A stretch of 64,000 bases of DNA from Parundibacterium terreum (GTDB lineage Bacteria; Pseudomonadota; Gammaproteobacteria; Burkholderiales; Burkholderiaceae_D), in assembly GCF_014636315.1 (NCBI RefSeq), contig NZ_BMED01000007.1:186001-250000 (forward strand). The letters run 5' to 3'. Positions 19,181-25,273 of the stretch are shown piece after piece (position 1 is the stretch's first letter; each line of letters opens with the position of its first letter). Under the pieces are notes generated by a model, which did no database searches, had not been told where the DNA came from, and was given only the letters and a program-made list of their open reading frames with translations. A program made the position numbers and the translations under genes.

Positions 19181-19627
19181 ATGAGCAAAATTCAAAAAGT
19201 ACTGGTGACAGGAAAAACCCACACTACCGGCAGCGATGCACGCATCTTTTCCGGCGACCACGAAGGTAACCTGAACATCAAGCTGACAGGCACCGGCGCG
19301 CGCAGCTATGCGTTCGAAGCAATCCAGGCCCATCCTACTGCTGAGCAATTGTTCGCCGGCGCCTGGTCTGCCTGTTACAGCGGTGCAGTCGGCATCGTGG
19401 CCAAAGAGAAAAACGTCACGCTACCAGCAGACACTGCAGTGGATATAGAAGTGGATCTGGGCCTGAGCGGTAGCGAGTATCTCCTACAAGCGCGCATCAC
19501 GCTGATCGCGCCTGGCGTTGACGAAGAAGTGGCCTTGGCGATTGCCCATGGTGCAGACCAGATGTGCCCATACTCTAAAGCAACCCGCGGCAATATCGAC
19601 GTAGCTTTGAAAGTTGTCACCGCCTAA
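19181..19627 (+). CDS. ohr: organic hydroperoxide resistance protein Ohr (copy 1)
   Basis: A 148-residue Ohr/OsmC-family thiol peroxidase that reduces organic and fatty-acid hydroperoxides. The redox cysteines lie in WSACYSGAVG and ADQMCPYSK; the early arginine is in the GTGAR region. It is preceded by an ATGAGGATACAACC leader with a good ribosome-binding site. A second copy, 136 of 148 residues identical, starts 549 bp downstream, each with its own operator-like element. Confidence 0.93.
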   Translation: MSKIQKVLVTGKTHTTGSDARIFSGDHEGNLNIKLTGTGARSYAFEAIQAHPTAEQLFAGAWSACYSGAVGIVAKEKNVTLPADTAVDIEVDLGLSGSEYLLQARITLIAPGVDEEVALAIAHGADQMCPYSKATRGNIDVALKVVTA

Positions 19628-19729: not shown

Positions 19730-20176
19730 ATGAGCAAAATTCAAAAAGTACTGGTAACAGGCAAAACCCACACTACCGGCAGCGACGCACGCATTTTTTC
19801 CGGCGACCACGAAGGCAACCTGAACATCAAGCTGACAGGCACCGGCGCACGCACCCATGTATTTGAAGCAATCCAGGCCCATCCTACCGCTGAGCAATTG
19901 TTTGCCGGTGCCTGGTCTGCCTGCTATAGCGCGGCAGTCGGCATCGTGGCCAAAGAGAAAAACGTCACGCTGCCTGCTGATACTGCAGTGGATATAGAAG
20001 TGGATCTGGGCCTGGGCGGTGGCGAGTATTTCCTGCAAGCGCGCATCACGCTGATCGCACTTGGCATTGACGAAGAAGTGGCTTTGGCGATTGCACATGG
20101 TGCTGACCAGATGTGTCCATACTCCAAAGCAACCCGCGGCAATATTGATGTGACCCTGAACGTCATCACAGCCTGA
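19730..20176 (+). CDS. ohr: organic hydroperoxide resistance protein Ohr (copy 2)
   Basis: A 148-residue tandem paralogue of copy 1, differing at 12 positions clustered around residues 42-44, 96-99, 110-112 and the C-terminal strand. Both active-site cysteines are kept (WSACYSAAVG, ADQMCPYSK). It has its own promoter-like sequence and operator, so the two copies can be induced separately. The high nucleotide similarity indicates a recent duplication or gene conversion. Confidence 0.93.
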   Translation: MSKIQKVLVTGKTHTTGSDARIFSGDHEGNLNIKLTGTGARTHVFEAIQAHPTAEQLFAGAWSACYSAAVGIVAKEKNVTLPADTAVDIEVDLGLGGGEYFLQARITLIALGIDEEVALAIAHGADQMCPYSKATRGNIDVTLNVITA

Positions 20177-20466: not shown

Positions 20467-20718
20467 ATGACGACCAATCCATCCAAATACGAACCTATCA
20501 GTTGCGAATTTCACGACCTGCTGGAAGTGCACGCAACAAAGCGCAAGCCGACCCAGATACACTTCTTCGACAGCGATGGAACAGCACAAACTCGCCATGC
20601 GACGATTACCGATGTATTTGCCAGGCAAGGCGCCGATTATCTGAGCTTGAGTACGGGCGAAACCTTGCGCCTGGATCAGTTGATAGAAGTGGATGACGCC
20701 AAGCTGGCAAACTATTGA
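20467..20718 (+). CDS. Rho-binding antiterminator (Rof/YaeO-like)
   Basis: An 83-residue protein resembling the Rof (YaeO) family, which binds the Rho termination factor and inhibits it. The pattern YEPISCEFHDLLE at the start and GADYLSLSTGETLRLDQL near the end matches the family's Sm-like fold. It has a near-perfect ribosome-binding site, AGGAGGT, 7 nt before the ATG. Assignment rests on motif resemblance. Confidence 0.65.
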   Translation: MTTNPSKYEPISCEFHDLLEVHATKRKPTQIHFFDSDGTAQTRHATITDVFARQGADYLSLSTGETLRLDQLIEVDDAKLANY

Positions 20719-21202
20719 ATCGTTGTGGCACCATGAGCATTGATGATCACTTAGGGCATGACATAGTCAGCGACGTGATTTTCGATTGAAAATTGAGCAG
20801 TATGGGCAGAGGGGAATATTTAGGCGTGTGAGGCAACGTTGTATTGGTTTGCGCTGGAAATTGATTCACTTGGATCTCGTATAGGTCAATACTGGAAAAA
20901 TTTGATTGAAAATGCCAAAGAAAATTTTCAAAACGCAGAATATAGCTGTGGATTTTATAAAATATCGCCCGAAAAATGACGTTGATTACTGTTCCTGTTC
21001 CCTTTTGACGGGAACGGCATAATTGTCAGGCATAATCCCGCGATTTAAGGAACGGCTACATATAATCCGATGAACTTCTTGATTCTGAATTTGAATCTAA
21101 CTAGAATCGGCATCGTCAAAGTTGAATGAAATCCGCAACTTATAAAGTTAACTTACGGTAATTTGTTCTTGTCGCAGTTCATTACTAACAATCAAGGCTC
21201 CC
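20719..21202. other. 484-bp AT-rich left edge of the island
   Basis: Composition turns AT-rich here compared with the flanking ohr/rof genes. It holds a gene-fragment-like frame (20824-20979) and a short hairpin GTTCCC-ttttgac-GGGAAC at 20997-21015. The remaining sequence before the nuclease gene probably contains its promoter; I saw no flanking repeat or tRNA. Confidence 0.5.
20824..20979 (+). pseudogene. possible gene remnant, 51 codons, no proper start
   Basis: A frame preceded directly by TAG and without ATG or GTG reads ACEATLYWFALEIDSLGSRI and continues to KISPEK before TGA. It looks protein-like (amphipathic, few rare residues). It may be the 3' end of a decayed gene, or start at the TTG at 20839. 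Confidence 0.3.
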
Positions 21203-21718
21203 TTGCAACAACAAACCCACAACTCTTCATGCCAAGAGCCATTTTCCAGTGAAGCCGATCTGGTTCAGAATTTTTTGGAGTTGCTGAAAGTCGGTGAGTC
21301 TCCATGGGGAAATGTAGAAACTACCACCGAGTGGGATTACCGCAATGGAATCACTGATGTTCTAGTCCGTACTAATCAGGGGCACCTCGTCGCCTTTGAA
21401 GCCAAATTGACAGATTGGCGTCGTGCAACTCATCAGGCTTATAAGAATACTACTTTTACAAGAAGTGCTTATGTTGTTATGCCTCCCAGCGCGGCACAAA
21501 GAGCAAGCACACATCCAGAGATTTTCCAGCGCTACCGCATAGGACTTTGCTCAATTGACAATAATGGTGTTAAGATTGTAATAGAAGCACCTGATTTGGA
21601 GGATGAGCCGCTAATTCCGTGGATGCATCGGAAGGCCCATCTATTTTTCGATGAGGCAGCAGAGTGCGGACTCACAATTGCAAACGGACATCGCAACGGA
21701 AATATGCAGACAGCTTAA
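21203..21718 (+). CDS. PD-(D/E)XK-type nuclease-like protein
   Basis: A 171-residue protein with a restriction-endonuclease-like core: aspartate 52 in ITDVLV, then E66-A-K68 on the next strand (VAFEAKL), giving D-x13-ExK. Hydrophobic beta-strands flank these residues (YVVMP near 90-94). The track start is TTG at 21203; no ATG lies ahead of the core. Its last 68 bp overlap the following kinase gene in another frame, so the two are coupled. Function is unproven; nuclease folds beside kinases are common in phage-defence loci. Confidence 0.7.
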   Translation: MQQQTHNSSCQEPFSSEADLVQNFLELLKVGESPWGNVETTTEWDYRNGITDVLVRTNQGHLVAFEAKLTDWRRATHQAYKNTTFTRSAYVVMPPSAAQRASTHPEIFQRYRIGLCSIDNNGVKIVIEAPDLEDEPLIPWMHRKAHLFFDEAAECGLTIANGHRNGNMQTA

Positions 21719-22514
21719 TGTCGCGTTATTACGCGGCCTGGGCTCTGGCGCCTTCAAGCAAGTCTATTTGATAGAAAAAGATAGTCATTTATACGCGCTC
21801 AAAATAGCACCGGTGTCAGGTGAGCTCAAGGCTAGGTTTGAACGTGAAGTCGACGCGCTGAAAACGTGCTCTCACTCTGCGATTTCGAAAATTCATGCCT
21901 CGGATCTCATGATCGTTCAAAACAGGGAGTACTGGACAATCATTGAGGAGTACCTGCCATTCGGAACACTCCAAGATTTAACACAGAGCAGATCTTTGTC
22001 TGGAGCAGACATTCTGCATATGGGCGTTTCTTTAGCCGAGGCTCTAGCCCATCTCTTCGAACGTAAATTCGTTCATCGGGATATTAAGCCCGCTAATATT
22101 TTGTTTCGAAATTCTACAGAACCTGTACTAACTGATTTTGGAATCGTGAGAATGCTTAATAAGCAGTCTCTTACCCAAGACTTCATGGCACAGGGACCCG
22201 GAACACCGATGTATGCGGCGCCGGAACAACTACTTAACGAAAAAAGTACTATTGATTGGCGGACAGACCAGTTCGGCTTAGCGTTGGTCTTAGCTGAGCA
22301 GCTTTTGGGCCACCATCCTTTCCTGACGGACGAAAATTCTCAGCCGCGAGATGCTGTTATGACTGTTGCTAGTCGGCAGTCGATGCCAGATATCAATAAG
22401 CAACGACTAATTGACAGTGGGTTCGGCTGTTTGATCAAAGCCATGTCTCCTTGGTCTGTTCAACGTTATAGAAAACCCGAAGAATTTCTTAATGCTTTGA
22501 AAGGCAATAATTAA
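21651..22514 (+). CDS. Hanks-type Ser/Thr protein kinase
   Basis: A 287-residue protein that is almost entirely a eukaryotic-like kinase domain. The glycine-rich loop is RGLGSGAF (28-35), the ATP lysine K51 and the helix-C glutamate E66. The catalytic loop HRDIKPAN spans 142-149 (D144), DFG is 162-164 and APE 190-192. No transmembrane segment or PASTA domain follows, so it is a soluble, complete-looking kinase. It starts inside the nuclease gene, and its stop is one base from the next start. Its target may be one of these two neighbours. Confidence 0.92.
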   Translation: MRQQSADSQLQTDIATEICRQLNVALLRGLGSGAFKQVYLIEKDSHLYALKIAPVSGELKARFEREVDALKTCSHSAISKIHASDLMIVQNREYWTIIEEYLPFGTLQDLTQSRSLSGADILHMGVSLAEALAHLFERKFVHRDIKPANILFRNSTEPVLTDFGIVRMLNKQSLTQDFMAQGPGTPMYAAPEQLLNEKSTIDWRTDQFGLALVLAEQLLGHHPFLTDENSQPRDAVMTVASRQSMPDINKQRLIDSGFGCLIKAMSPWSVQRYRKPEEFLNALKGNN

Positions 22515-22515
22515 C

Positions 22516-23673
22516 ATGGGCGCTTATCATCAGATGGGGCATGATTCCTGGAATCTCGTGCACGAAAAACATCTGCACGGTTATGAAGGCATCGTCCTAA
22601 GTCCAATAAATAACGCTCCAGAAACAATGGCGCAAAGAATTCTGGCTCTAAAAAAGAAGCGCGACGACCTCGATATCATCCTCGACCCGCAGCTGTATGA
22701 GCCCCGCAGTAATAGGGGACAACTGGCATCATGGCCGTATTTCTCCACAGATGTAGACACCGTAAATCTGGCAAATGTTAGCTGGTGGGGGGAAAAGGGA
22801 CAAGCTATCGTGGCAGCTGCGAAGAGTGTAGGTGCAAACGCAATATGCTCCCCAGCGATGCTTCCGAGGATATACAGTGACGACTATTACCGCTGGACCG
22901 TCGACTGCGCGGAAACGACAAGTAAGCACGCATCAAAAAACGGGATTGACACACTTATTACCTCAATTGTCCGGTTGTCTGAACTCGCTCAAAAAGGGCG
23001 ATGCGAGGCAATTGCCAGTATCTTAACTGGTACTGATATCTCTAGAATCTACCTAGTACTTTCGGACGACCTTACCCCAAGAAATCAGCGTACAGATGTC
23101 GAAAGCTTGGCAGGTGCTATTCGCCTGATTAGGCTGCTTGAAGATGCAGGCACCGAGGTTTTGGTATCGTTCAGTGGTCTAGATATGCTCCTTTGGAAAG
23201 CAGCTGGCGCAACTCATGTTGCTAGTGGAAAATTTTTCAATTTGCGCCGATTTGTGCCAGGAAGGTTTGAAGAAGACAATCAAGATGGTGGGAGGGTCGT
23301 TCCCTATTGGACTGATGCCGGCTTGATTACTTGGCTCCGAGAAGACGATATCAAGTTACTGGATAAGAACGAGTTAATTGATCGTACCGAAGCTAGTTCA
23401 AATCCATTTTCAAAGGAAATTCTTGAAATTCTTGATGCTGGCTCAGGCGAGGCATGGGTTGGATATGGATGGCGCCAGTATTTATATTGGTTTCAGGAAA
23501 CTGAGGCAGTCATTTCCTCGGACCTTAATGCCGCAAAAACGATACTAAAATCTGCGGATGCGTTGTGGGGGAAAAAGGAAGAGACAGGAGTATATCTATT
23601 TGACCGTCAAAATACCGGCGACTGGATTCGACCTTGGTTGAATGCAATAAAGATGGGTTTACAGGATATATAA
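22516..23673 (+). CDS. uncharacterised protein of the kinase module
   Basis: A 385-residue soluble protein, starting one base after the kinase stop. Alternating strand-like segments (GIVLSPI, LDIILDP, GANAICSP, RIYLVLSDD, TEVLVSFSG, THVASGKFF) recall a TIM barrel, reminiscent of tRNA-guanine transglycosylase or luciferase-like barrels, but I cannot place it in a family. Conserved-looking polar sites are DPQLYEP and SGLDMLLWK. The C-terminal third (WVGYGWRQYLYW) is aromatic-rich. It is probably the effector or substrate of the kinase module. Confidence 0.75.
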   Translation: MGAYHQMGHDSWNLVHEKHLHGYEGIVLSPINNAPETMAQRILALKKKRDDLDIILDPQLYEPRSNRGQLASWPYFSTDVDTVNLANVSWWGEKGQAIVAAAKSVGANAICSPAMLPRIYSDDYYRWTVDCAETTSKHASKNGIDTLITSIVRLSELAQKGRCEAIASILTGTDISRIYLVLSDDLTPRNQRTDVESLAGAIRLIRLLEDAGTEVLVSFSGLDMLLWKAAGATHVASGKFFNLRRFVPGRFEEDNQDGGRVVPYWTDAGLITWLREDDIKLLDKNELIDRTEASSNPFSKEILEILDAGSGEAWVGYGWRQYLYWFQETEAVISSDLNAAKTILKSADALWGKKEETGVYLFDRQNTGDWIRPWLNAIKMGLQDI

Positions 23674-24034
23674 ATCATCAAATTCTCTACGATAGTTTTG
23701 ATGGCATTTTTTTCTGGAAATTGACGTTCTTTGTAGGGAGATTTCGTGTCCAAATTCGCTAGTATTTTAAAATGGGTCGAATAGTGAGGCGACCTTGGAT
23801 CGGAAGCAGGGCGATGGTTTGAACGGCTTTATTTGGATCTTAGGAGGTTGAACTTCAACGGATTGGATAACTCAGGTGGATATATCACCAAGGACAAAGG
23901 TGAAAAAACAAACAGGATCCTTTTGGTGGAAAAAAATTAATTTTTCAGCCAAAATAAGAACTGCATACATGATCATCGACATGCAAATAAATTCCAGAAT
24001 AACAGTAAAATTTGGTCCTACTCAGGAGACTTAA
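23674..24034. other. 361-bp AT-rich gap after the kinase module
   Basis: No complete gene. It contains a broken reading frame (23746-23940) and the promoter region of the YegP-like gene, whose ribosome-binding site CAGGAGA lies at 24022-24028. I saw no insertion-sequence ends. Confidence 0.5.
23746..23940 (+). pseudogene. possible decayed gene interrupted by tandem stops
   Basis: A GTG after GGGAG begins VSKFASILKWVE, then TAG TGA interrupt, and the same frame continues GDLGSEAGRWFERLYLDL to ILLVEKN before TAA. The part after the stops keeps a protein-like composition, suggesting a gene lost to point mutation. Chance openness in AT-rich DNA is possible. Confidence 0.3.
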
Positions 24035-24367
24035 ATGGCAGGTTATTACGTAATTAAAAAAGGTTCGTCCGGCATGTTTCACTTTGTTTTAAAGGCAGAT
24101 AATCATGAGGTCATCCTTACTAGTGAGACTTATGTTTCGAAGCAAGGGGCGCATACAGGCATAGCTTCCTGCCAGGTGAATAGTCCTTACGACTCACAAT
24201 ACGACAAGCGTAATTCGACGTCAAGCCAGCCCTATTTCGTGTTAAAGGCTAAGAACGGCGAAATTATTGGCACCAGCCAAATGTACTCGTCGACATCGGC
24301 TCGAGATAACGGTATTGCATCGTGCAAGTTCAATGGGCCAACAACTAAGATTGTTGATGAATCTTAG
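24035..24367 (+). CDS. DUF1508 (YegP-like) two-repeat protein
   Basis: A 110-residue protein made of two similar halves: FHFVLKADNHEVILTSETY ... GIASCQVN and YFVLKAKNGEIIGTSQMY ... GIASCKFN. This is the tandem DUF1508 fold of E. coli YegP. Small soluble proteins of this family are abundant in stationary cells but have no settled function. It has a good ribosome-binding site and is followed by a clear terminator. Confidence 0.88.
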   Translation: MAGYYVIKKGSSGMFHFVLKADNHEVILTSETYVSKQGAHTGIASCQVNSPYDSQYDKRNSTSSQPYFVLKAKNGEIIGTSQMYSSTSARDNGIASCKFNGPTTKIVDES

Positions 24368-24382: not shown

Positions 24383-24412
24383 AAAGGCCACTATTAATAG
24401 TGGCCTTTTATT
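24383..24412. terminator. bidirectional intrinsic terminator
   Basis: AAAGGCCACTATTAATAGTGGCCTTT, a near-uninterrupted inverted repeat with A-rich and T-rich flanks, 16 bp after the YegP-like stop. It can end transcription from both sides and marks the right border of the AT-rich island. Confidence 0.85.
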
Positions 24413-24634: not shown

Positions 24635-25273
24635 CTATGCGTTGATGATCCGGGCAACCCGGGCAGCAATTGCCTGCGCCAATTGGTGAACATGGAAACC
24701 ATCGACGAAGCCGTGGTGAGCCTGTACTGAAAAAGGTACTGTCATCAGGCCATCCTGTGCAGATCCAAAACGGCCCCATGCAAACGAAGGAATATCGGGG
24801 CTTCCCCTGAAGTCAGGATGCTCTATCGATGTCAGGCGTAGCCAGGGTATGCAGGTAATATGGAAGGCATCCTTCTGCTCGCGCTCGCTCAACTCATTGC
24901 CCGTATTGATCATCTGCACGCTTTCTTCGGCTTCTTTCTTTGCCGCCAGGCTGCGGGCAATGAACTGGTCCAGATCGGAAGTCATGTCAAACTGGGTGAA
25001 GTTCAAGTTGTTATCTTTATTGACTACCGTATAAGAACCGCAGAATTTATCTATCTTGATTATTTTTCCGTCATGCTCGCGATACCGGAAATTTTCCACA
25101 TCCTGCACGGAACTCAGCAGGCAGAACAGCAGGAAGTGGAAGGGAGGAATCCCGCGCTCCTTGCAATAAGGCCGGAAGTCCGGTAGCTCAAGATCGAAAC
25201 TCAGATTGAAGCGGGGATTGTCTGCCTGGGAAAAAAAGTCGTATCTATCGCGGCGTTTTTCAAAATTCTGCAT
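24635..25273 (-). CDS. CatA-like chloramphenicol acetyltransferase family protein
   Basis: A 212-residue protein with the type A chloramphenicol acetyltransferase fold. The catalytic motif HHGFVDGFH places histidine 187 and aspartate 191 as expected (HHxxxDG), and length matches the family. Chromosomal members do not always give chloramphenicol resistance, so the natural substrate is open. It is monocistronic with its promoter upstream of 25273. Confidence 0.85.
   Translation of the reverse strand: MQNFEKRRDRYDFFSQADNPRFNLSFDLELPDFRPYCKERGIPPFHFLLFCLLSSVQDVENFRYREHDGKIIKIDKFCGSYTVVNKDNNLNFTQFDMTSDLDQFIARSLAAKKEAEESVQMINTGNELSEREQKDAFHITCIPWLRLTSIEHPDFRGSPDIPSFAWGRFGSAQDGLMTVPFSVQAHHGFVDGFHVHQLAQAIAARVARIINA

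Follow-up and report, generated by a model that had tools for sequence, protein, structure and literature searches.

What do three tightly packed genes of Parundibacterium terreum, encoding a putative nuclease, a protein kinase and a barrel-shaped protein, do together? We analyzed them within a 64,000-nucleotide stretch of the genome, hereafter the window, for which an earlier note had described a coupled module suited to phage defense. Our preferred reading, which we rate a little short of an even chance, is that the trio is one horizontally moving conflict module of a defense-like kind, in which the kinase and barrel proteins would sense invasion as a pair and switch the nuclease. We consider a mobile, defense-like function of the trio likely, judging from its sequences and their distribution.

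Architecture and composition of the locus

The trio and the two AT-rich stretches that enclose it are arranged as follows.

20719-21202, no strand: AT-rich upstream stretch, GC 0.39
21203-21718, + strand: nuclease gene, 171 aa, TTG start, PD-(D/E)XK fold in the predicted model
21651-22514, + strand: kinase gene, 287 aa, ATG start, PF00069 match
22516-23673, + strand: barrel gene, 385 aa, ATG start, TIM barrel in the predicted model
23674-24034, no strand: AT-rich downstream stretch, GC 0.37, preceding a DUF1508 gene

The three packed open reading frames of the earlier note were confirmed, together with the 68-bp overlap of the nuclease and kinase frames and the 1-bp gap before the barrel frame. 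When a 3-kb stretch was shuffled 500 times, no single strand gave an open run of more than 182 codons, so that the lengths of the kinase and barrel frames are beyond chance. The frame of the putative nuclease, with 171 codons, is within chance length, and its reality rests on conservation. The AT-rich island that the note described is evident from the base composition: the trio genes have a GC content of 0.46-0.47, compared to 0.554 for the whole window, and their flanks of 0.39 and 0.37. The GC3 of the trio is 0.41-0.46, as against 0.57-0.67 in six flanking genes and 0.48 in the DUF1508 gene. No direct repeat longer than 11 bp is shared by the two flanks searched. With the left flank as the query, 43 genomes of the genus gave nothing but short matches, apart from the window's own, and no usable empty site. 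Promoter- and terminator-like sites are no more frequent than in shuffled sequence.

The genes around the window trio look metabolic rather than defensive. Upstream lie two tandem, near-identical 148-aa reading frames (19181-19627 and 19730-20176; 90% DNA identity over approximately 457 bp), which we take to be OsmC-like, and a short gene (20467-20718) with a weak match, below the curated cut-off, to ROF, a Rho modulator. A protein of the chloramphenicol acetyltransferase family (PF00302, E 1.4e-16) is encoded on the minus strand at 24635-25273. The tandem DUF1508 gene (24035-24367, E 6.9e-38) starts 0.4 kb downstream of the trio, has a similarly low GC3, and is directly followed by a strong terminator-like hairpin (24383-24408). 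We rejected it as a part of the trio, as it is present at the window locus only, among ten loci compared. YegP is presumably a DUF1508 protein. It is named among capK-capS-associated genes in PMC13373217.

The three genes occur together across phyla

We collected 26 distinct trio loci, including that of the window. Scanning with the barrel protein located seven loci in species genomes and two in plasmids, and profile searches of IMG/VR and of genome samples yielded further ones. Phage records gave no match to the barrel protein, nor to a distant family member used as the query. A plasmid search with the nuclease of locus L016 returned three records (Natribaculum, Kineococcus and Priestia), each with an adjoining kinase and barrel. 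The Kineococcus barrel (L052) led in turn to plasmid 3 of Arthrobacter sp. FB24, which carries all three genes, its nuclease being unannotated. Family HMMs missed the Kineococcus barrel at E 0.1; it is tied to the family via the Arthrobacter protein (tblastn E 3e-38), which an HMM matched at E 4.9e-5. Twelve handles that designate the same places as others (L001, L014, L017-L022, L024, L027, L028 and L035) were left out as duplicates, as was L013, the barrel of which is identical to that of L003.

Trios occur in Pseudomonadota, Actinomycetota and Bacillota, in metagenome-assembled genomes titled Acidobacteria and Armatimonadetes, on IMG/VR contigs and on the plasmid of a haloarchaeon, Natribaculum breve. 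Other named records are those of Burkholderia arboris, Polaromonas, Kineococcus, Arthrobacter and Priestia, among others. The 24 fully read barrels share at most 71% pairwise identity. Matches are rare, even though every count given here includes the window's own or the seeding genome: 1 of 294 genomes in the family, 4 of 399 in the order, 1 of 369 in the class, 1 of 398 in the phylum and, for the phyla to which L006 and L007 belong, 4 of 151 and 4 of 199.

All three genes are found together in 25 of the 26 loci, which bears out the co-occurrence implied by the coupled module of the earlier note. The remaining locus, L005, begins at a contig end; the contig start falls within the would-be kinase N-lobe, and an in-frame stop follows 40-42 bases in. 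Counts of residues and gene orders refer to 24 loci, from which L005 and L008 were left out; in L008 all three genes are seen, and the barrel is cut at the locus end. A profile of the nuclease family has exactly one match per genome, at the trio, in 12 of 12 trio genomes (three of these matches extend a few codons beyond the gene's own stop), and a single match in 120 genomes of the order, in the window's own genome. The nuclease and barrel families were seen in trio context only, and the linkage of the three genes looks near-obligate.

The nuclease, kinase and barrel genes follow one another in this order and are co-directional in 17 of 24 loci. The nuclease and kinase frames overlap by 7 to 113 bp in 14 of these and are 1 to 12 bp apart in three, with overlap lengths varying with the start codon chosen. 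The other seven loci have a nuclease gene that runs toward the barrel gene, and the 3' ends of these two convergent genes overlap, by 4 to 77 bp in six loci and by 36 bp in Priestia. The kinase and barrel genes are adjacent in every locus. In Priestia they form one protein of 677 aa, with the kinase at residues 5-273. Pairwise distances of the three proteins correlate with rho of 0.60-0.63 over 23 loci, above all 2000 permutations in each case, and shared host ancestry may contribute to this. Locus L023, with a kinase that lacks its N-lobe, was dropped from the distance test. For several loci (L029-L034) this test used nuclease frames truncated where the locus ends, whereas nuclease residues were counted in the full frames.

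Kinase and nuclease keep predicted catalytic residues

The second gene encodes a Hanks-type serine/threonine protein kinase by its sequence: it matches PF00069 (E 5.7e-35; 121.4 bits, cut-off 31.7) and has the expected K51, E66, D144, N149 and D162. All 24 loci share D144, N149, D162, T185 and R272, in keeping with the complete kinase described in the earlier note, and K51 and E66 are kept in 23. The exception is L023 (L023:5438-5998), on a 157-kb IMG/VR contig, where tblastn detected no kinase N-lobe in any frame; this copy of the trio may be broken or mis-assembled. The window kinase has no additional Pfam domain beyond PF00069.

The nuclease has no match in Pfam, NCBIfam or PADLOC at E 1, and its match in PHROG (E 0.0026) is to a family of unknown function. 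Its AlphaFold model, built from 12 sequences, has a pLDDT of 87.6. The model matches structures of the PD-(D/E)XK type, as the note had supposed: SPO1766 (3dnx, E 6e-6) and, with E below 1e-3, NucS/EndoMS repair nucleases (2vld and 5gke). Cap4, Card1 and Can2 were matched without significance. The predicted core fold, together with the catalytic D, E-x-K and downstream Q, places the first gene product in the PD-(D/E)XK superfamily. Residues E17, D52, E66, K68 and Q78 do not vary among the 24 full frames. E66 and K68 of the nuclease and D144 of the kinase, which the note had singled out, are therefore all strictly conserved. The three genes occur together across phyla, with the predicted catalytic residues of both enzymes retained.

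The spacing between D52 and E66 is 13 residues in ten nucleases, including that of the window, 32 in L034 and 88-99 in the remaining 13 of the 24. The insert of the L016 nuclease has weak winged-helix matches (MarR_2 E 7.9e-5, below the curated cut-off), and that of L012 a winged-helix match at E 0.04 only.

The third protein is a predicted TIM barrel with a transglycosylase-like fold

The 385-residue product of the third gene had been called unplaceable, and sequence libraries gave no usable family for it. There was no match in Pfam or NCBIfam, the best PADLOC match had an E-value of 0.036, that in PHROG (E 0.021) was to a family of unknown function, and a sequence search of the PDB returned nothing meaningful. 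The barrel protein represents, by these searches, an undescribed family, absent from Pfam, NCBIfam and PADLOC. Profile searches place neither it nor the nuclease in a housekeeping family.

Structure prediction agreed with the barrel-like shape suspected in the earlier note. The model, built from 13 sequences, is a TIM barrel (pLDDT 87.4, pTM 0.89) with eight barrel strands, helices between them and additional helices at the C-terminus; the prediction is poor for residues 240-259. Residues D57, P58, P113, Y179 and F246 are conserved in 24 of 24 loci, in an alignment that is uncertain near the N-terminus for the three most distant members, and position 238 is a glycine in 23 of 24. Among 50 matches listed in a fold search of the PDB, eight are tRNA-guanine transglycosylases, with TMq values of 0.46-0.52 over 375-424 columns, and the remaining 42 have a TMq of 0.39 or less. 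Over its full length the modeled barrel fold is therefore closest to tRNA-guanine transglycosylases among the matches listed. The E-values are modest, the best being that of a C-glucosyl deglycosidase (2.7e-4), with transglycosylases at 4.4e-4 to 1.8e-3. Searching BFVD by fold yielded nothing at E 0.001; a Sulfolobales virus protein, a putative queuine tRNA-ribosyltransferase, appeared at rank 20.

Sequence comparison does not support membership of the barrel in the tRNA-guanine transglycosylase family. The Pfam search returned no match to PF01702, and comparison with transglycosylases by hhalign was negative (E 0.71, 0.82 and 0.1, against a control alignment of five sequences). A C-x-C-x2-C...H motif, which in transglycosylases we take to bind zinc, is found in five of five transglycosylase controls, with the histidine 26 residues after the last cysteine. 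It occurs in three of 24 barrels (Kineococcus, Priestia and Arthrobacter), with the histidine at 17-19 residues, and is absent from the other 21, including that of the window. These three barrels belong to the barrel family of the trio, since they align to 22 others in hhalign with a probability of 98.8 (E 5e-17, 333 columns). By strand order and known motifs, rather than by structural alignment, we assume that D57 would occupy the position of the first catalytic aspartate of transglycosylases and S237/G238 that of the nucleophile. We call the barrel transglycosylase-like by fold and not a member of the family, because the fold resembles that of transglycosylases and the profile comparison is negative.

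Genomic setting of the trio

Plasmids carry five of the 26 loci, and a further five come from IMG/VR contigs, which may hold host DNA. In L003, genes of a Mu-type transposase, TniB and TniQ are located upstream of the trio, with TniQ 0.4 kb from the nuclease gene; TniQ lies 4.7 kb upstream in L064, and a Mu-type transposase 2 kb away in L004. The trio of L063 (L063:3537-14997) is inserted between the HsdR gene and the HsdS and HsdM genes of a type I restriction locus, in which an ORF6N gene is also present. An N6/N4 DNA methyltransferase gene is positioned 0.3 kb from the nuclease gene in L062, and a C5 methyltransferase gene 1 kb away in L025. On the Polaromonas plasmid, a PDC-S52 candidate and a UvrD-like helicase gene are approximately 4 kb downstream of the trio, and a JetD-like gene approximately 26 kb from it. 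A reading frame adjoining this trio (L009:11465-12538) has a weak match to a CARF-PD-(D/E)XK model (E 1.4e-4). When ten neighboring proteins were compared to PADLOC, four matched anything. These observations concern selected genes at selected loci and carry no measure of enrichment. For the phage-defense or abortive-infection device suggested in the earlier note, a mobile and defense-like setting of the trio is supported by its sporadic spread, plasmids, IMG/VR contigs, genes of the Tn type and one type I restriction locus.

Proposed mechanism

The kinase and barrel would form a single sensing and signaling unit, as no locus separates their genes and Priestia joins them in one protein. The nuclease, the gene of which changes strand, looks like the effector. 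We propose that the barrel, built like the nucleobase-handling tRNA-guanine transglycosylases, binds a nucleic-acid or nucleobase ligand that reports invasion, and that this binding may turn the kinase on. The kinase would then phosphorylate the nuclease, or the barrel holding the nuclease, and phosphorylation would release cleavage of DNA or RNA, stopping the invader or the cell. We infer the order from sensor to kinase to nuclease, and regard the switching of the nuclease or barrel by phosphorylation, as suggested in the earlier note, as a reasonable guess.

The reading of the trio as a conflict module is weakened by the metabolic appearance of the window neighbors and by the few PADLOC matches (4 of 10) among neighboring proteins. 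It is further weakened by the barrel fold search, with its modest E-values and a C-glucosyl deglycosidase as the best match, and by the negative profile comparison with transglycosylases. A more specific version is possible, though clearly less likely than not: an undescribed form of bacterial and archaeal immune signaling, in which a kinase, paired with a barrel of transglycosylase ancestry that would lack the catalytic nucleophile and act as a sensor of nucleic acids or nucleobases, releases a dedicated PD-(D/E)XK nuclease. Its logic would resemble that of GCN2 of eukaryotes, in which a kinase is linked to an inactive tRNA synthetase.

If the trio defends, it would be an unnamed kinase-nuclease system, with a barrel family outside the searched libraries, in bacteria and an archaeon. 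Prokaryotic immunity would gain a nuclease controlled by a Hanks-type kinase, and a transglycosylase-like fold turned sensor would become directly testable. As the three genes are strictly linked, single substitutions could be used to test each step.

Alternative functions

It is unlikely, in our estimate, that the trio is instead a toxin-antitoxin or plasmid-stabilizing module in which the nuclease is the toxin and the kinase and barrel restrain it. The genes overlap and five copies are on plasmids, as such a module might have it; however, the three genes are large and many copies, including that of the window, are chromosomal. VapKSC, described in PMC13373217, offers a precedent for a toxin nuclease under the control of a kinase. 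This explanation overlaps with defense in any case.

We regard as distinctly unlikely a device similar to restriction-modification, in which the barrel swaps a DNA base in the manner of DpdA, unmarked DNA is the target of the nuclease and the kinase has a regulatory role. The window clade lacks the Cys/His motif and has no profile match to transglycosylases, the position of the nucleophilic aspartate appears by strand order to be Gly or Ser/Thr, and base-synthesis genes were not seen among the window's listed reading frames around the trio. Set against these points are the transglycosylase-like barrel fold, the Cys/His motif in three members, the location of trios beside type I restriction genes once and beside a methyltransferase gene twice, and the action of transglycosylase homologs in defense, as stated in PMC12839542.

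A DNA-repair or stress-response module that is incidentally mobile has a similarly low probability. Such a role would be consistent with the nuclease fold, for which SPO1766 and the repair enzymes NucS/EndoMS are the closest matches, whereas the very scattered occurrence of the trio is unlike that of housekeeping repair genes. That the three genes are chance neighbors without a common function, for which we found no supporting point, has a probability close to nil and is contradicted by their co-occurrence, with the trio complete in 25 of 26 loci, in two gene orders and with one fusion.

Comparison with known systems

The earlier note had stated that the trio fits no system known by name, and the literature agrees with it to the extent covered: no description of such a trio was found in the listed titles and abstract openings of the open literature, and the trio may be catalogued elsewhere. 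Nor does it correspond to MADS, BREX type 2 or VapKSC. The comparison also drew on a review of restriction (PMC12707154), on DefensePredictor (PMC13092281) and on a functional selection in E. coli that includes a Ser/Thr kinase (PMC9519451).

The PD-(D/E)XK fold and the D...E-x-K...Q arrangement are common to the trio nuclease, the SPO1766-type proteins and NucS/EndoMS. The trio nuclease differs from them in having no match to a family model and, in 13 of 24 members, in the insert of 88-99 residues between D52 and E66.

The BRC and Dpd systems, as presented in PMC12839542, place a transglycosylase-like protein in a defense setting with nuclease activity, as our reading does for the trio. They contain HerA, PglZ, STAND and other genes, whereas the trio has three genes, including one kinase, and a barrel that the model of the transglycosylase family does not recognize.

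VapKSC and CapK-CapS (PMC13373217) are among the known systems closest to the trio. The operon has three genes, and its nuclease is under the control of a kinase, as we propose for the trio; protection from a phage has been reported for it, and it is activated after DNA damage. The trio was rejected as a VapKSC system, as all three component types differ: VapKSC has a GHKL kinase, a STAS middle protein and a PIN nuclease, and the trio a PF00069 kinase, a TIM barrel and a PD-(D/E)XK nuclease.

Among PADLOC models, the trio kinase is similar to mad6 (E 2e-41) and PD-T4-6 (E 6e-34). It stays below the cut-offs for MAD6 of MADS (NF047741, 87.9 of 460 bits) and for PglW of BREX type 2 (NF033442, 54.3 of 990 bits). 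In contrast to PD-T4-6, MAD6 and PglW, the trio kinase consists of a 287-aa domain alone and has its own two partner proteins.
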